A DNA stretch of 64,000 bases from an uncultured bacterium (GTDB lineage: Bacteria; Cyanobacteriota; Vampirovibrionia; Gastranaerophilales; Gastranaerophilaceae), in contig CADAYD010000017.1 in assembly GCA_902791985.1 (NCBI GenBank), forward strand, positions 1 to 64,000. Reading direction: 5' to 3'. The notes beneath the pieces are model-generated. The model was not told where the DNA came from. It saw nothing but the letters and a program-made list of their open reading frames with translations, and did not search any database. The position numbers and the translations under genes were made by a program. Shown here piece by piece: positions 39,102-50,634 of this stretch; within the stretch, counting starts at the first letter, position 1, and each line of letters starts with the position of its first letter.

Positions 39102-39821
39102 TTACGCTTTCATCTGCATAGGACCTTCTAAGGATGCTGTGACAAACTGCTTTGTATAAGGATTATCCTGTCTTAACAATTCATCAGGAGAGCCTTCAAA
39201 AACGATTTTACCGTCGTAGAGCATAATTACTCGGTCAGCTGTTCTTGTAATCGTTGACATTTGATGAGTTACAACAATAGAGGCCGCATTAATTTCATGC
39301 TTGAGTTGTACAATATAATCTTCTATCAAAGTTGATGACATCGGGTCTAACCCTGCTGTAGGTTCATCATAAAGTATTGTGTTTGGCTGTGTGACTATTG
39401 CTCTTGCAAAACTTACACGCTTTTGCATCCCGCCTGAGAGTTCTGACGGGAATTTGTTTTCTATACCCTGCAATCCAACCAGTTCAAGTTTTTGGGCTAC
39501 AATTTTCTGTAGTTGCTCGTGGGTATATAGTTTTCTTAAATCCTTTCTTTCTCTCAGCGCAAATGATATATTGTCAAATACGTTTAATGAATCAAATAGG
39601 GCGGAGTATTGGAATACCATAGCAATGTCGCCTTCCGATGTTATAATCTCCCCTTCATCATACGGAATCAAGCCGGAAATAAGTTTTAAAACCGTACTTT
39701 TTCCTGAACCTGAAAATCCGACAATCGCAAGAATTTCTCCGTCATTGACCTTAAATGAAATATCATTTATAATAACTTTGTCTTCAAATCTTTTTACCAA
39801 ATTTTTTACTTCAATACTCAT
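39102..39821 (-). CDS. mlaF: MlaF-type ABC transporter ATPase
   Basis: 239 residues. Walker A GFSGSGKST (35-43), Q-loop VFQYSALFDSL, signature LSGGMQKR and Walker B TILYDEPTAGLDP. The Q-loop sequence and the neighbouring MlaE permease place it in the MlaFE family, which moves phospholipids between inner and outer membranes (or toward the envelope in general). AAGGA precedes the ATG. An MlaD-type MCE protein is not visible nearby. Confidence 0.88.
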   Translation of the reverse strand: MSIEVKNLVKRFEDKVIINDISFKVNDGEILAIVGFSGSGKSTVLKLISGLIPYDEGEIITSEGDIAMVFQYSALFDSLNVFDNISFALRERKDLRKLYTHEQLQKIVAQKLELVGLQGIENKFPSELSGGMQKRVSFARAIVTQPNTILYDEPTAGLDPMSSTLIEDYIVQLKHEINAASIVVTHQMSTITRTADRVIMLYDGKIVFEGSPDELLRQDNPYTKQFVTASLEGPMQMKA

Positions 39822-39835
39822 TTTTTAATCCTTTT

Positions 39836-40645
39836 TTAAAAGAAAAATAACATTGCAAAAATCATATCCCAAATAACAATTGAGATAAATGACCAAACAA
39901 CCGCTTTTGTTGTGGCAAGTCCGACACCTTTAGCACCACCTTTAGCAAAATACCCGAAGGTACAACTGATTAGTGCAATTGTCCCTCCAAAAACTGCGGC
40001 TTTAGAAATACATACCCATAAATCTTTCATGTATAATCCAAGCCAAACTGAAGTGAAATATGCCCTGTATGAAAGTCCCGAGAAAATATTTGATGCGACT
40101 CCGCCCAGAATTACTCCGAAAACAGAGGCTATTATTACAACAATCGGCATCATAAAAATTCCTGATAAAACTCTTGGAGTAAAAAGATAGCCAACGGAAT
40201 CAACGCCCAGAACATCTATAGCATCAATTTGTTCGGTTACTCTCATTGTTGCAAGTTCTGAAGCCAAAGACGAACCTATCATTGAAATAAGAGCAAATCC
40301 TGACATTATAACCCCGACTTCTCTGACTGTTAAGATAGTCATTAACATTCCAATTAAACCTGAACCGCCCTGTTTAACCATCTCATTTGCAACTTGAGAA
40401 GATACAATGATAGAGGTCATTCCAACAATTGAAAGAGTAATAGGTAAAGAACTTATTCCAAATCTTTCGCATTGGGCAAAAAGTTCTTTTATATCAATAC
40501 CGTCACGAAAAATTCGCTCTGTCATTCGTATCCCCATTTGAGCAATTTGCCCGATGGTTAATGTAAAATGCATCAATTCCTTAGATAGTGTCGAAAATAT
40601 TTTATAAGTAGCAGATTTTCTTAGATATTGTGCAAATGTAATCAT
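39836..40645 (-). CDS. mlaE: MlaE-type lipid transport permease
   Basis: 269 residues from ATG 40645; the 19 upstream in-frame residues are rejected because a TGCTATAAT promoter occupies them. An N-terminal amphipathic helix is followed by five membrane helices with family segments ELATMRVTEQIDAIDVLGV and FGYFAKGGAKGVG. Together with the ATPase 14 nt downstream it forms the membrane core of an Mla-type transporter. The leaderless promoter drives both genes. Confidence 0.9.
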   Translation of the reverse strand: MITFAQYLRKSATYKIFSTLSKELMHFTLTIGQIAQMGIRMTERIFRDGIDIKELFAQCERFGISSLPITLSIVGMTSIIVSSQVANEMVKQGGSGLIGMLMTILTVREVGVIMSGFALISMIGSSLASELATMRVTEQIDAIDVLGVDSVGYLFTPRVLSGIFMMPIVVIIASVFGVILGGVASNIFSGLSYRAYFTSVWLGLYMKDLWVCISKAAVFGGTIALISCTFGYFAKGGAKGVGLATTKAVVWSFISIVIWDMIFAMLFFF

Positions 40646-40651
40646 AAAATG

Positions 40652-40681
40652 ATTATAGCACAGATAAGTTATTGTTGTACA
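40652..40681 (-). promoter_or_regulatory. Extended -10 leaderless promoter of mlaE-mlaF
   Basis: TGCTATAAT ends 6 nt before the ATG at 40645; TGTACA lies 18 nt upstream of the -10 box as a moderate -35. Confidence 0.6.
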
Positions 40682-40830
40682 TTTTTGCAAAGTAATAATC
40701 AATTATGTTTACATATCATGTAGATTTGTAAAATCTTCAATTAATTTATTAAAGTTTTTTTATTTCGTAGTCGATATAATAATTGTTAGAAGATTAGACT
40801 TTATGATAAAATTTTAATAAGAGGAGCTTT

Positions 40831-43626: not shown

Positions 43627-45303
43627 ATGGAATTACGGAATAGTCACATTTTATCTCATATTCAAAACAAAACAGCCGATTATGAAGAACGTGTTGCACT
43701 TGGAATTAAAGGTCAATATGGCTGGGAAGAATTTACATACAAGGGATTAGGTCTGTTATCAAGAAAAATCGCAAGGCACCTTATTGAAGATGTTGGAATT
43801 AAAAAAGGCGAATGTATTGCCATATTGTCTGAATCAAAACCTGAATACGGTGCTTGTGTTTTTGCATCGGTTTTGACAGGAACAACAACTGTTCCGTTAG
43901 ATATTAAACTTTCAAAATATGAATTAAAATCGATTTTGTCTGATTGCTTGCCTACAGTAATGTTTACCTCTCAGCACTATTTGGAAACCGCACTTGAATT
44001 GCAAAAAATGATTCCGGAAATAAAGTATATTTATGTAATTGATGAGCATACTGATAGTGAAAATGCCCAAAATATTTATGATTTCCCTGATAAATATGAC
44101 GGAAAATGGCGTCAGAGGAGTTCAAAATCAACGGCATTCATTATTTATACATCAGGCACAACAGGTGCTCCGAAAGGAGTAGAAATTTCATTCCAAAATG
44201 TTAATGCTCAGCTTGTTGATTTAATGGAAGTTGTTGATATTATCTTGCCTAAAAATCAGAATATTCATATGCTTTCAATTTTGCCGATGAATCATTTGTT
44301 TGAAATGACCGTTGGTTTTTCAACCTTCTTAAATTCTGGATTTTCGGTTTATTACACAAGCAGCTTCAAACCAAAAGATATAACCGGTGTAATGAAGGAA
44401 AAAGGAATTCAGTTTATGATTGCTGTTCCTGCGTTTTTAAAACTCTTAAAGGCAGGGATTGAAAAAGAACTTTCAACTGCACCAAAATTTGTTCAAGTGT
44501 TATTCAAAATAATGTATTTTGTAGCACAATTCATTCCGTCATACAAAATGAGAAGAAAATTATTCAAAAAAATTCACCAAAGTTGGGGCGGTAAATTTTT
44601 CGGATGTATTTCAGGGGGTGCGCCGCTTGATGTTGAAGTCGGAACTTTCTTTGAAAGAATTGGAATTCGAGTATATCAAGGTTATGGACTTTCAGAAACA
44701 AGCCCTGTTGTATCGGTAAACTATGATAAACGTGGGGAATTGGCTTCAGTCGGTCATCCGTTAAGACATTTTGAGGCAAAAATTGAAGAAACAACCGGCG
44801 AATTATGGTTAAGAGGACCATCTGTTATGAAGGGTTATCACAATCAGCCTGAAATGACAGCAGAAGTGATTGATGAGGATGGGTGGCTTCATACCGGTGA
44901 TATTGCAAAAATTGATAAAGACGGTCACATATATATTACAGGTCGTATTAAAAATATGATTGTTTTGCAGGGCGGTAAAAAAGTGTTCCCTGAAGAAGTT
45001 GAGTCGGTTCTTGAAAATAGCCACTATATTGCTGAAGTTTGTGTATTAGGGGTTTCAAGGAGCTTTGGAGCAAAAGATGGTGCTGAGGAGGTTACTGCGG
45101 TTATTGTACCGAAGGCTGAAATGTATAATACATATTCTGATGATGATATAGACAGAATGATTAAGCTTGATGTTAAGACTCTTTCTCAACAACTTGCGCC
45201 ATATAAGCGTCCGACTTCAGTTATCATATCAAAAGAACCGTTGCCAAAGACAACGACACTTAAAGTTAAACGCAAAGATGTAAGAGAGATGATTTGCATA
45301 TAA
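43627..45303 (+). CDS. Long-chain acyl-CoA synthetase / AMP-binding enzyme
   Basis: 558 residues. ANL-superfamily motifs in order: P-loop YTSGTTGAPKG, YGLSETSPV, WLHTGDIAKID, GRIKNMIV and the C-terminal catalytic Lys in TTTLKVKRKD. It activates a carboxylic acid with ATP and transfers it to CoA or a carrier; a long-chain fatty acid is likely from overall FadD-like architecture. GGGG precedes the ATG by 8 nt. Single gene closed by a strong terminator. Confidence 0.88.
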   Translation: MELRNSHILSHIQNKTADYEERVALGIKGQYGWEEFTYKGLGLLSRKIARHLIEDVGIKKGECIAILSESKPEYGACVFASVLTGTTTVPLDIKLSKYELKSILSDCLPTVMFTSQHYLETALELQKMIPEIKYIYVIDEHTDSENAQNIYDFPDKYDGKWRQRSSKSTAFIIYTSGTTGAPKGVEISFQNVNAQLVDLMEVVDIILPKNQNIHMLSILPMNHLFEMTVGFSTFLNSGFSVYYTSSFKPKDITGVMKEKGIQFMIAVPAFLKLLKAGIEKELSTAPKFVQVLFKIMYFVAQFIPSYKMRRKLFKKIHQSWGGKFFGCISGGAPLDVEVGTFFERIGIRVYQGYGLSETSPVVSVNYDKRGELASVGHPLRHFEAKIEETTGELWLRGPSVMKGYHNQPEMTAEVIDEDGWLHTGDIAKIDKDGHIYITGRIKNMIVLQGGKKVFPEEVESVLENSHYIAEVCVLGVSRSFGAKDGAEEVTAVIVPKAEMYNTYSDDDIDRMIKLDVKTLSQQLAPYKRPTSVIISKEPLPKTTTLKVKRKDVREMICI

Positions 45304-45376: not shown

Positions 45377-46198
45377 TTATTTATGTGTTGAATATTTATC
45401 AACAATTCTTTTTGCATCATCGGCATCAACTTTTATATAACCTTTTTTGTCGAGGTATAAGCTGATTTTTTCTTCTGCATTTTTAGTAGTAATAATTTTT
45501 ACATAACATTTGTCAATGTCTGAACAATGATTATTTCCGGAGAACTCTAAAATATTCCCGTCAGCCAATTCAAATCTGTTACCATTCGCTGAACCAACAA
45601 GATTTTTTTCAAAACATGATGCAAGCCCATTTGAAGATAAATCTTTACATTTAATCTCCATTGTTTCATTCATAAAGGTTGCTTGCTGTAATGTTGATAA
45701 AGATTTTTTAATCATTACTTTGTTTTGAACATTATTTGTATTTATAATAATTGACGGAAGCGTCATTGCGGCAATAACGCCTGTGATGCCGACTCCAATC
45801 AGTAATATTCCTGCAGTTGCCCAAATTCTTTGAACGTCATGAAAATGCTTCAATGAATCCCATTTTTTGTTTTGCCATGCCCAGTCATTACCCTTTATTC
45901 CAAACCATACTGAAAGTGCTAAATTAGCAATATTTGATATGGCATTAAGAAAAAATATGAAAACAAAAATTAAAGCGGCAATTTCTTTTTCGTTTACCAA
46001 ACCTGCAAAAATTCCAAGAATAAGTGCTATAACAAAGGTCAAAACAGGAACGGCTAATCCAATTAATGTTAAATATGATTTATTGAAAAGACCCCATATC
46101 CAGCCAAAAAAGAATGCTCCCCAACTAAATCTCTTAACTTCGTGGGGAATATCAATACCTTTACCTTCACCTGAGTTATTTACAAAATTTTCTTCCAC
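45377..46198 (-). CDS. DUF2628-like membrane domain fused to pilin-like domain
   Basis: 273 residues from GTG 46198 (GGAGG 4 nt upstream). The first part, FSWGAFFFGWIWGLFNKSY and two or three membrane helices, resembles DUF2628-type proteins. From about 145 the helix GVGITGVIAAMTLPSIIINTN followed by KVMIKKSLSTLQQATFM matches the N-terminal helix of the type IV pilin-like proteins common in this lineage. The C-terminal domain has two Cys pairs (MEIKCKDL... ASC; CSDIDKC). No Gly-Phe-Thr cleavage site for prepilin peptidase is present, so this pilin domain stays membrane-anchored. Confidence 0.7.
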   Translation of the reverse strand: MEENFVNNSGEGKGIDIPHEVKRFSWGAFFFGWIWGLFNKSYLTLIGLAVPVLTFVIALILGIFAGLVNEKEIAALIFVFIFFLNAISNIANLALSVWFGIKGNDWAWQNKKWDSLKHFHDVQRIWATAGILLIGVGITGVIAAMTLPSIIINTNNVQNKVMIKKSLSTLQQATFMNETMEIKCKDLSSNGLASCFEKNLVGSANGNRFELADGNILEFSGNNHCSDIDKCYVKIITTKNAEEKISLYLDKKGYIKVDADDAKRIVDKYSTHK

Positions 46199-46220: not shown

Positions 46221-46254
46221 AAAACGGTATTATGTTAAACATAATACCGTTTTT
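46221..46254. terminator. Bidirectional terminator
   Basis: Stem AAAACGGTATTATGTT/AACATAATACCGTTTT followed by T/G, between two minus-strand genes; ends the TolC-fusion transcript. Confidence 0.85.
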
Positions 46255-46273: not shown

Positions 46274-48829
46274 TTATAATGTAAAATCTTCTTCTGCCGG
46301 TAAAATGGACGGAATGTTCTTTATCCATTTTTTTGCTTCGTCGCTTGCTTTTGTCCAGTTGACAGATAGCAAACCTCTTTGTACCCAAATAAGTTCTTTA
46401 AAGAATTCATATTGAGAGTTCAATGCATCAAGTTTTGCATCAAAATACAAATGCTGAGCATCTGCAATCTGATCGATAGGCACTTCGCCTCTTAAGTATT
46501 TAGCTTTGACCATTTGATAGTTTTCGCTTTGTGCAAACATTGCTTTATAAGATTTTTCAATCATGAAGTATTTTGAAATTGCTCTGTTAACAACCGTACG
46601 AACCTTCATTTCTATTTCGGTATTAACTTCTTCCAAATAAGCATTAAGTTCGTTTAATTCAGCCTTGCATCTTGCAACTTCAGCGAATTTATGACCACCT
46701 TCAATCGGCTTCCACTGAGCACCGATAAAGAATCTTAACGAAGTTTTATTCAAATTCAAATAAGGTGTATTGCTCCAAGCATCTCCAAATGTTTGTGCTC
46801 CTGCTCCAACACCGGCGGCAGATGCTGCCATTGCATTACCGGTTGCTGCATATGTTTCACCAAAAGTCTGTGCCTGAGTTGCACTTGACATTGTAGTTGC
46901 TGTACCGGATCTAAGTTGGTTGTGAGCCGAATCTTCATAAGGTAAGGCTCTATCATACATTGTCCCGTATTCCAAGGACATTTTAGCATTAGGTAATAAA
47001 AACTTCTGTATGTAATTGCTCATTTCTGCTTTTTTCATCGCAATAGCAGCCTTGAGTTTTGTTGTTTCCGGAGATAAGTATATTACCTCCTCAACCAACA
47101 TATCTGTGAACTTGCCCAATTTTTTAGGGTCTCTTACGTGGTCAATAATGTGTAAATCTCTTGTGAAGAACGCAGGATCACCTGCAGTAAGCGGTTCAAA
47201 TGCAAAATCATATTTCTGATCTTGGTTTAGAAGTTTATTGATTGTAACTTTTAAATTTTTATAATCAGCCTGCATAGCAAGAAGTTTTTTCTCCTCTTCA
47301 CTGACCTGACCGGCCCAGCGGAAAACTTCTTCATATCCGCATTTGCCGGTTTTTTCACGAACTCTTGCAATAGCAAGGTTTTCTCTGGTTTCCTGTACGG
47401 ATTCCTCTTGAACCTTTATCATATTTTCAAGCATTAGGGTTTCAATAAACAAATTCCCGATATGATATTCGGTATTCGCTCTGGTCAAAAGCTCTTCGGC
47501 TTTATCAAATTTTAATTTTTTGTGTTTAACGATAATATTTGTAACTAAATCAGGAGAATATATTACCTGATCCATTGCTACTGTGAACTGACCGGCATGT
47601 GTCGGTACTCCTGAATAAGAACGTGCATAAGCATCATTGTATGATTGATAACCTAAATCAAGTCTTAAAGTTGGCAAATATCTTAAATATGCACTTGCAA
47701 CAGAACGACGAGCTGCACTGATTAAGAATTGTTTTCTCTTAATATCAAGGTTTGTATCATCCAATGCATCAATCAATGTTCCTAAAGAATATTTCGGCAA
47801 TTCTTTATGTGTAATTACAACTGAATTATTTAATAATCTCAAAGGTGGAGTATAGCCAACTGCTTCCCCTGTATCAGAGTTATAGAAAATTACCTTATCA
47901 TCATAGAAAGGTATTCTTTCGTTTTTAACTACATTACCGTGTAATACCCCGTGAATGTTAAATGATGTTGCTTCTGCAATTTTTTTATCAACATCCATTG
48001 TTGATGTCCCAAGCATAGCGCCCATTTCAACGTCTTCCCTACCTATGATGGAATAAGAAGGAAGTTTTTTGCTGATAGCATAATCATAAACTTCTTTTCT
48101 TTGTGCGGTTGTAAGATTATATAATGGAGTAACAAAAATAGCATCAACATCAGACGGTATTTTTGCTAAAGATGCTTTTAAATTTGAACTTACAGGAATA
48201 ACAACATAATTCAAATCACAATTTTTTTCTTTGAGTTTTTGTTGAATACTTGCGTTCCAATTTTTTTCGGTTTTATAGTAATTTTCATTCATCAAGATTG
48301 CTGCTTTTTTAATAGATGGTACAAGAACCTTGAATGTATAAAAATCATTCGCTGTTTGCTGAATAGGGTTAAAGAATTTGTTTCCGAAATCTCTCAAACC
48401 GTATTGTTCAATAGTTACAACATACTTTTTCTTGTCTTTTTTATCTGTATAATATGTACTTGACATGTAACCTAAAGAAATAACCATTCTTGCTCTTGAA
48501 TTAAGTGCTTTATCTGATGCAATTTTGGCACCTTTTTCTGTCCAATCCCCAACAAATATCAAATCTTTCGGAAATACTGCTCTGTAATCAGGCAGTAATG
48601 ATGTTGTAATTGTCTGTTGGAAAGTTTTTAAAACTTCCGCATTTTTTTCTGACGGACCGTCAAAAACAAATGCCAATTCAATAGGCTTCGCATTTTTTAA
48701 CATTTGTTCAATTTTTGCTTGTTTTAGCCTCGCTTGTGCCTGCATAGGTGTTTCTTGAATTGCTAAAGCGCATCCGCTAAATACAAACGTAATTATGAAC
48801 GCTAAAAATGTGCTCCATAATCTTTTCAT
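46274..48829 (-). CDS. Periplasmic binding domain fused to TolC-type channel
   Basis: 851 residues. Signal region 1-23 contains SGC (Cys20), so it may be lipidated or cut at CALA. Residues about 48-330 look like an ABC-type substrate-binding (Peripla_BP-like) domain: LAFVFDGPSEKN, ARMVISLGYMSS, VDAIFVTPLYNLTT, GAMLGTSTMDVDKKIAE. From about 360 to the end is an outer-membrane efflux protein with paired long coiled coils (LFIETLMLENMIKVQEESVQETRENLA; a second set near 740-830). A Gln/Ala/Ser-rich insert (about 665-705) interrupts the second half. GAGGT precedes the ATG. No inner-membrane pump is adjacent. Confidence 0.82.
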   Translation of the reverse strand: MKRLWSTFLAFIITFVFSGCALAIQETPMQAQARLKQAKIEQMLKNAKPIELAFVFDGPSEKNAEVLKTFQQTITTSLLPDYRAVFPKDLIFVGDWTEKGAKIASDKALNSRARMVISLGYMSSTYYTDKKDKKKYVVTIEQYGLRDFGNKFFNPIQQTANDFYTFKVLVPSIKKAAILMNENYYKTEKNWNASIQQKLKEKNCDLNYVVIPVSSNLKASLAKIPSDVDAIFVTPLYNLTTAQRKEVYDYAISKKLPSYSIIGREDVEMGAMLGTSTMDVDKKIAEATSFNIHGVLHGNVVKNERIPFYDDKVIFYNSDTGEAVGYTPPLRLLNNSVVITHKELPKYSLGTLIDALDDTNLDIKRKQFLISAARRSVASAYLRYLPTLRLDLGYQSYNDAYARSYSGVPTHAGQFTVAMDQVIYSPDLVTNIIVKHKKLKFDKAEELLTRANTEYHIGNLFIETLMLENMIKVQEESVQETRENLAIARVREKTGKCGYEEVFRWAGQVSEEEKKLLAMQADYKNLKVTINKLLNQDQKYDFAFEPLTAGDPAFFTRDLHIIDHVRDPKKLGKFTDMLVEEVIYLSPETTKLKAAIAMKKAEMSNYIQKFLLPNAKMSLEYGTMYDRALPYEDSAHNQLRSGTATTMSSATQAQTFGETYAATGNAMAASAAGVGAGAQTFGDAWSNTPYLNLNKTSLRFFIGAQWKPIEGGHKFAEVARCKAELNELNAYLEEVNTEIEMKVRTVVNRAISKYFMIEKSYKAMFAQSENYQMVKAKYLRGEVPIDQIADAQHLYFDAKLDALNSQYEFFKELIWVQRGLLSVNWTKASDEAKKWIKNIPSILPAEEDFTL

Positions 48830-48972: not shown

Positions 48973-50634
48973 TCATTTTTTTGCCGTTTTTAATCTTAAT
49001 TTATCAATAATATAACCTGCCTGATTAAGTAATATCGCCGAAAGAAATCCTAAGAATAGGGATTTCCCGCCTGAAACCAATTTTGTTGCAGAGATTATTG
49101 AAGTTAATATGCCTCCGGCAATCGGTATTCCTGATTTTAATGCGACGGATAATTTTTGATCATCTGATGTGGCATAATTTAAACCTCTTACGATAAGTCC
49201 TAAAGAAACTAATATTGTCAAAATATCTGTTGGGGCAGAACCAAGTTCTAAATCCCTTACTTTATCAAAGAATTCACCTATTTCAATATTTACTGATTTA
49301 TCAAAAGATTTTACGGCTTTTTTAAGTGCTAAATTCGCACCGGATTTTGACAATTCAAAAGGTGCTATTTTGTAATAAATAGCCAGCATATCCTGTAGTT
49401 CTCCGGTTGCATCATCGTTGATGAGTTCTTTAATTAATCTAATGCTGGTATCTTTTGTTTCTTGATGTATTTTTTGAATGTTCTCATTCATCCCTGAGGA
49501 AATTGAGTGTTGAGATAATTTATCTAATTCCTTTAAAAATATCGATTTGTTATGTTTCAGCCCATCTGAATTTTTTGTAAACCATTCAAGTTTTTCTACA
49601 ATATCAGTTGCAAATTCGTCATTAGGTGGGATTATTTCTTTTAATTTTTTTACATAATCGTACATGATTGCAATTTTATCTTTGTTTGTGTAAGTCATTG
49701 CATTTCTTACGATTGCGATGTTATCAGCAAGTTTTGTTTTGTCTCCTTTTATTTGTTCTGCTGCGATAAATGTTTGCCACATTTCTTTTCTTTTAAATTT
49801 ATTGTTTTTAGTCCAAAAATCTTTAAAAGATTCATTCCAGAATTTTGAATATAAAGAAGAATTAATTTCTTTAATATAACTGTATCTTTGTGTTTGAAAT
49901 TTTTCTGATATAAAATTTTTTACAATGTCATTTGTTGTTTGACGAAAACCTTTTGCCATTTCTACCAGTTGTTTTTTGGTAAAATCTTTTTCAACTTCAA
50001 TAAATTCTCCATTTTGCCATTCTTTTACCTTGTATTTTATTATTTCATCAGGTGATTCTTCTAGAATATATTTATCTAAATTGTCAAATATTCGGTTCAT
50101 TCTATCAAAACTTTTTCCGGTTTGTTTGTACGATTTGACGACTGTTTTTCGGGATAAATTTTCAAAAAATTTTGATATTGATTTATGTATTTTTTTTGTG
50201 GGTTTTGTTTTGTACATCAATTTCATGAATAAAACATCTTTTATTGAGGTTATATTATTTATGCTTTCGGATTTTTTTATAAATGAATTAAGTTTTTTGA
50301 TAGCGTAACCATAGAATTTAGATTTTCTTTTTGAATTTTCCAGTGTTGATATTTCTAAATTTTCTTCAAAATATTTTTTTAATTTATTCATGTATTTGTT
50401 TACATTTTTTTGAGCGCCTCTTGAAAACATTAAAAGTACAATTCCGGAGCCGAGAATCAATCCCCCCAAACTATAAGATATATTTTTGTTTTCTGCATTA
50501 TTATTTTTATTATTTTTAAGCTCCAAAAAATAAGCATTTTTATTATCCGATTTATGGCCTAAATAAAAATTCTGAAATACATTACCATATTGACCGGCAT
50601 ATTTATATTTATACTGAGTTACGAGATTGTCCAT
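48973..50634 (-). CDS. Multi-helix membrane-associated lineage protein
   Basis: 553 residues, not recognised. One membrane helix near 53-70, a long Lys-rich helical middle (about 75-455), and a C-terminal cluster of two or three membrane segments (DILTILVSLGLIVRGLNYA, SGIPIAGGILTSIISA, SLFLGFLSAILLNQAGYII). The N-terminus NVFQNFYLG loosely fits the lineage motif. AGGA lies 11 nt before the ATG. Flanked by the TolC fusion and GT9 genes in the same direction but with gaps over 100 nt. Confidence 0.65.
   Translation of the reverse strand: MDNLVTQYKYKYAGQYGNVFQNFYLGHKSDNKNAYFLELKNNKNNNAENKNISYSLGGLILGSGIVLLMFSRGAQKNVNKYMNKLKKYFEENLEISTLENSKRKSKFYGYAIKKLNSFIKKSESINNITSIKDVLFMKLMYKTKPTKKIHKSISKFFENLSRKTVVKSYKQTGKSFDRMNRIFDNLDKYILEESPDEIIKYKVKEWQNGEFIEVEKDFTKKQLVEMAKGFRQTTNDIVKNFISEKFQTQRYSYIKEINSSLYSKFWNESFKDFWTKNNKFKRKEMWQTFIAAEQIKGDKTKLADNIAIVRNAMTYTNKDKIAIMYDYVKKLKEIIPPNDEFATDIVEKLEWFTKNSDGLKHNKSIFLKELDKLSQHSISSGMNENIQKIHQETKDTSIRLIKELINDDATGELQDMLAIYYKIAPFELSKSGANLALKKAVKSFDKSVNIEIGEFFDKVRDLELGSAPTDILTILVSLGLIVRGLNYATSDDQKLSVALKSGIPIAGGILTSIISATKLVSGGKSLFLGFLSAILLNQAGYIIDKLRLKTAKK

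Follow-up and report, generated by a model that had tools for sequence, protein, structure and literature searches.

The DNA analysed here, a 64,000-nucleotide stretch from an uncultured bacterium of the Gastranaerophilales (hereafter, the window), encodes an outer-membrane factor (OMF) with a built-in substrate-binding protein (SBP) domain, copies of which are already deposited in sequence databases and partly annotated. The fusion is a genuine two-domain protein in one reading frame, which starts with ATG and runs unbroken over 851 aa. A sequence-only reading of the window had described it as a single protein made of an ABC-type binding domain followed by a complete outer-membrane channel, and our analysis bore this out in each respect: which two domains are present, how they are ordered and that the channel is complete. 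An artefact of assembly or a frameshift joining two genes was rejected, since dozens of independently assembled species carry full-length fused copies. The features of the locus are the following:

46274 to 48829, minus strand: coding sequence of the fusion, TrpX-type substrate-binding domain plus TolC-type outer-membrane channel, 851 aa
48874 to 48901, minus strand: match to a sigma-70-type promoter (TTGACA-16-TATAAT, 12/12) upstream of the fusion start codon, as a consensus match only
48761 to 48829, minus strand: putative SPI-like signal peptide, residues ~1-23, from sequence and alignment
47810 to 48694, minus strand: substrate-binding domain, class I/cluster B, of TrpX/CD0873/VC_1101 type, residues 46-340, from profiles and AlphaFold/Foldseek
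47225 to 47779, minus strand: OEP repeat 1, residues 351-535, holding a 68-residue helix (426-493), from Pfam and AlphaFold
46754 to 46939, minus strand: hypervariable Ala/Gly/Thr-rich insert, residues 631-692, ahead of the second barrel strands, from conservation and AlphaFold
46340 to 46753, minus strand: OEP repeat 2, residues 693-830, holding a 67-residue helix (713-779), from the genome search and AlphaFold
46221 to 46253, minus strand: terminator-like hairpin of 15 bp directly 3' of the fusion stop codon, as a consensus match only
43627 to 45303, plus strand: AMP-binding acyl ligase, neighbour of the fusion, which it often adjoins in relatives

The C-terminal half of the window protein matched Pfam OEP (PF02321) over two stretches (E=4.3e-17), and in a search of the genome the two repeats scored 57.6 and 22.2 bits, both above the Pfam cut-off of 22. 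The AlphaFold model of the full-length protein (pLDDT 79, pTM 0.55) consisted of an alternating alpha/beta domain at residues ~48-340 and a channel of TolC-like fold, with TolC as the top Foldseek match (E~1e-14, TM up to 0.79 by target length). The complete channel spans residues ~349-830, and in the model its first helix (residues 349-382) runs into the first barrel strand, with the binding domain placed just before this helix. The fusion shares with the TolC/OprM OMFs (PF02321 OEP; TIGR01844) the two OEP repeats, the two helices of ~67 residues, the fold and, in relatives, the operons with adaptor and pump; it differs from them in the extra N-terminal binding domain of ~300 residues, in its weak match to TolC sequence models and in the stand-alone position of its gene in the window.

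The match of the window protein to the NCBIfam TrpX model (NF041285) was weak (E=1.9e-5, residues 163-334), and its score of 23.9 bits did not reach the equivalog cut-off of 390 bits; judged by its sequence, the binding domain is a distant relative of TrpX and not TrpX itself. Among 16 family members, all matched OEP, eight matched the TrpX model (best E=2e-10) and six matched PF04392 ABC_sub_bind (best E=4e-10). The family profile recovered from the PDB both several TolC structures and 3lft, an SBP from S. pneumoniae with bound Trp. Foldseek searches with the full-length model returned, after TolC, the SBPs CD0873, VC_1101 (3lkv) and 3lft at E ~1e-6. For the N-terminal domain modelled alone (pLDDT 87, pTM 0.85), the five best PDB matches were all TrpX/CD0873-type SBPs, including 6hni, 6hnj, 3lkv and 3lft, with E-values from 1e-10 to 7e-9 and TM values of 0.58-0.70. 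Profiles and structure matches show that the N-terminal domain has the class I fold of TrpX/CD0873-type SBPs. Domain searches of both halves agreed with the sequence-only reading, with OEP in the C-terminal half and TrpX/PF04392 in the N-terminal half of the window protein and its homologues, and the binding-protein fold on which that reading depended was found by profile as well as by AlphaFold/Foldseek. Viral structures gave no meaningful match, and a viral origin was rejected.

A lipoprotein anchor on the protein was also considered and discarded: the Cys at residue 20 of the window protein varies among relatives, so the fusion protein is probably not a lipoprotein. Transcription as a single gene is suggested by the terminator-like hairpin that directly follows the stop codon. 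The earlier observation that no pump genes adjoin the fusion holds in the window, where the gene stands alone, no linked thioesterase or pump was found and a cluster of EmrA adaptor and EmrB MFS with an OMF is absent, but does not extend to relatives, in which RND, ABC-2 or EmrAB-type pumps are neighbours of the fusion. Directly upstream of the fusion lies a 553-aa ORF (48973-50634, minus strand) with no Pfam match. A 273-aa membrane protein (45377-46198, minus strand) that had no accepted Pfam match is encoded in the space separating the fusion from the acyl ligase; its sequence, TLPSIIINTNNVQNKVMIKKSLSTLQQA, is akin to prepilin-like proteins found near the fusion in other loci. An MlaE permease with an adjoining MlaF-like ABC ATPase (39102-40702, minus strand) is located 5.6 kb from the fusion, and MlaE/F homologues are also found near it in loci L048 and L130.

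A scan of GTDB revealed 80 loci, each encoding a match to the fusion, nearly all of them in rumen or gut assemblies of Gastranaerophilales; in 241 genomes of this order, at least ~95% of the profile was found in one open frame at 56 places. The distribution of the fusion is patchy within the genus, since some near-complete genomes of the same genus lack it. In one relative, a stop codon breaks the second half of the fusion (G156:C4:131228-131890), which could be a split or decaying copy. More distant fusions were present in other families of Gastranaerophilales and in another order of the same class, and the sole match in a sample of the phylum outside class Vampirovibrionia was weak and confined to the channel. 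In addition, a tblastn search of plasmids identified a full-length fusion in Sulfuricurvum kujiense, of the Campylobacterota (WP_041667226, 803 aa), annotated only as 'ABC transporter substrate binding protein', with the same domain order as the window protein, ~20% identity to it, and matches to PF04392 (1e-9) and OEP (3e-39). When binding halves were compared through hhalign, probabilities were 99% for Sulfuricurvum and 97% for L135, and a weak 25% for L126. The question of occurrence in other genomes raised by the sequence-only reading is thus answered by many Gastranaerophilales, another order of the class and the S. kujiense plasmid.

In a tree of channel halves that included ten unfused OMFs, all fusions were placed on one side of a branch with support of 92/93. 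This grouping apart from the unfused OMFs supports, on a small sampling, a common origin of the fused channels. A TolC-family protein of 726 aa encoded in an RND operon of a Cetobacterium somerae plasmid (L150, 5260-7440) has a channel half that the tree places, on a long branch, within the fusion clade. The interpretation of its N-terminal region of ~290 aa as an SBP was rejected, with no support from Pfam or hhalign.

The gene neighbourhoods of relatives point to a role of the fusion in export. In five deeper relatives (L123, L124, L125, L126 and L135) the fusion heads an operon in which the genes for an adaptor and a permease of RND type come immediately after it. On the Sulfuricurvum plasmid the order is TetR, fusion, HlyD, RbbA-type ABC-2 protein and second ABC-2 permease, so that the two proteins of equal domain order differ in that the one from the plasmid belongs to an operon with an adaptor and an ABC-2 exporter. 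In loci L096 and L099, from two gut genomes, MarR, an EmrA-like adaptor, an EmrB-like MFS protein, an acyl-ACP thioesterase, the fusion and an acyl ligase are encoded in this order on one strand, and in L062 EmrB is directly upstream of the fusion. Ordinary unfused OMFs are also encoded near the fusion, at L055:1262-2569 and L096:415-1833. Every pump neighbour of the fusion in relatives is an exporter. Since pump genes lie beside it in relatives, the fusion is best explained as the exit duct of a tripartite exporter that has a sensor or accessory domain of its own in the periplasm, an explanation to which we give an even chance.

The opposite direction of transport, uptake, had been raised in the sequence-only reading and is now strongly disfavoured. 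In such a device, the channel would admit a solute that the binding domain catches and an ABC importer receives. The binding domain does descend from importer SBPs, with which it shares the class I fold, as in its top structural matches (6hni, 3lkv and 3lft). BPD_transp_2 permeases are taken as the importer partners of TrpX-type SBPs. No such permease was found in the host genome (97.8% complete), in a search that was positive in 12 of 14 control genomes, nor did this genome contain a free-standing PF04392 protein elsewhere. Uptake is therefore unlikely, and the uniform exporter neighbours of the fusion in relatives add to making it very improbable. The fusion differs from TrpX, CD0873 and VC_1101 in this lack of a BPD_transp_2 permease in its genome as well as in its linkage to a channel.

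With regard to export in the host itself, each of the four RND permeases of the genome has its own adjacent unfused OMF, and they show at most ~24% identity to the operon-type RNDs of relatives; on both grounds, a host RND was rejected as the cognate pump. An RND of the operon type is absent from this genome, and its EmrAB pair lies on a different contig, next to an unfused OMF that belongs to it. That these pumps all have OMFs of their own counts against the exit-duct explanation.

In the exit-duct arrangement that we infer, which covers trimer geometry, ligand binding, gating, substrate and the partner pump in the host, the signal peptide would send the protein out, and the C-terminal part would then form a TolC-like trimer. 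At its N-terminus each subunit would carry a binding domain whose ancestor was an aromatic-amino-acid SBP of TrpX/CD0873 type; in the model, a short linker ties this domain to the beginning of the first channel helix. Because the linker meets the helix at this point, the three binding domains would ring the channel exterior at the periplasmic equatorial belt, a position drawn from the model and from the analogy with TolC. The duct would serve an adaptor and a pump of RND, ABC-2 or EmrAB type depending on the lineage; in the lineage of the window the gene is alone, for which reason the pump would be encoded elsewhere. The binding domain would most likely sense a small molecule in the periplasm, which could be an amphiphile or an acid akin to the substrate that is exported, and sensing may modulate the opening of the duct or the assembly of the pump. 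The adaptor contacts TolC at the channel tip, and the route of such gating is not obvious, since the equatorial belt is away from this contact site.

Instead of sensing, the binding domain might catch a periplasmic substrate and hand it over to the pump or channel, thus recruiting it for efflux. Solute capture is the job of SBP folds, RND pumps load from the periplasm, and RND pump genes accompany that of the fusion in relatives. However, from the model and known TolC structures the domain is expected outside the channel and well above the RND entry sites, and copies associated with EmrAB and ABC-2 exist, pumps that as a rule take their substrate from the inner membrane or the cytoplasm. We regard recruitment as quite improbable.

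Conservation across 45 homologues, measured as mean pairwise identity, was 67% for the binding domain and 70-74% for the channel; within the latter, the insert at residues 631-692 had 31%, and the signal/linker region also varied freely. The insert is probably an extracellular loop. Rich in Ala, Gly and Thr and variable in length, this stretch (46754-46939) could face host or phage pressure. In the class I SBP fold, the cleft is lined by the loops that follow the core strands at their C-terminal ends. Near-invariant residues of the fusion were enriched in these cleft-side loops, in a weak signal (P=0.03), and not on the opposite face (P=0.76); their concentration in the loops suggests that the binding pocket is kept. 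Regarding the ligand, two residues are known to set the choice of amino acid in TrpX relatives (Ala268/Gln284; PMC6816091). These residues of 3lft align with Ile262/Asp279 of the fusion, so that the determinants of aromatic amino-acid specificity are replaced, and the ligand probably differs from that of TrpX relatives.

Two further explanations concern the binding domain. In one of them, the main rival of the sensing duct, the binding-protein fold is a scaffold only, which clasps the TolC equatorial belt or the peptidoglycan and stabilises or positions the channel without any ligand. The lipoprotein YbjP binds E. coli TolC with 3:3 stoichiometry between the equatorial domain and the membrane (PMC13082787, PMC13095208), near the expected place of the N-terminal domain of the fusion, which provides a precedent for an accessory domain attached to this part of TolC; YbjP is, however, a separate lipoprotein and not a fused binding domain, and its fold is different and smaller. 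A scaffold would also fit with the changed TrpX specificity residues, the weakness of the cleft signal, and the Cetobacterium relative, whose N-terminal region is no longer recognisable as an SBP. On the other hand, conservation is higher in the cleft-side loops than on the opposite face, and across the entire SBP half it comes close to that of the channel. Altogether, we consider the scaffold somewhat unlikely. In the second, more specific version of the exit duct, which we rate as unlikely, the duct is ligand-controlled: the domain would close on a periplasmic metabolite and thereby open or prime the channel or its docking with the pump.

Literature searches returned no paper on an SBP-TolC fusion and no characterised example, in agreement with the sequence-only reading, to which no characterised protein of this domain order was known; the architecture is, nevertheless, not unique to the host genome. 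TolC-type ducts are usually seen as passive, with pump contact alone opening them. Here, a conserved family of ducts carries its own periplasmic binding domain, occurs in at least two phyla and lies beside RND, ABC-2 and MFS pumps; it would bring a possible point of regulation to the outer membrane, and a ligand-controlled duct, if true, would be an outer-membrane step with its own substrate sensor. The fusion offers a defined test case for substrate sensing by an outer-membrane component, and it is a conserved envelope protein of the little-studied gut Gastranaerophilales.

A lipid substrate was considered for the gut lineage, in which the acyl-ACP thioesterase, the acyl ligase, a FarAB/EmrAB-like pump and MarR would form a module with the fusion that exports free fatty acids or similar amphiphiles. 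This reading is compatible with the exit-duct explanation and specifies its substrate. The acyl ligase is near the fusion in 20 of the 80 GTDB loci, in several orientations, and the thioesterase in 13, counts that are not independent since the loci share ancestry; in six loci MarR lies directly upstream on the strand of the fusion, and L096 and L099 have the complete cluster. As a precedent, FarAB-FarR of N. gonorrhoeae is a MarR-regulated fatty-acid pump of EmrAB type that uses a borrowed OMF (PMC6780985). The FarAB-MtrE and EmrAB-TolC systems resemble L096 and L099 in their MarR-regulated EmrAB-type pump, but their OMF is ordinary, without the binding domain of the fusion. The thioesterase also pairs with a paralogous ligase in genomes without the fusion, which weakens the case for an obligate module, and adjacency may therefore reflect the locus; moreover, the window has neither a linked thioesterase nor a linked pump. 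A functional tie between the fusion and its neighbouring acyl ligase in the window is suggested, the lipid link is a suggestion only, and the module as a whole appears doubtful. In the relatives G056, G058, G048, G006 and others, acyl ligases were found inside open frames of ~1,160-1,180 aa, fused to further domains.
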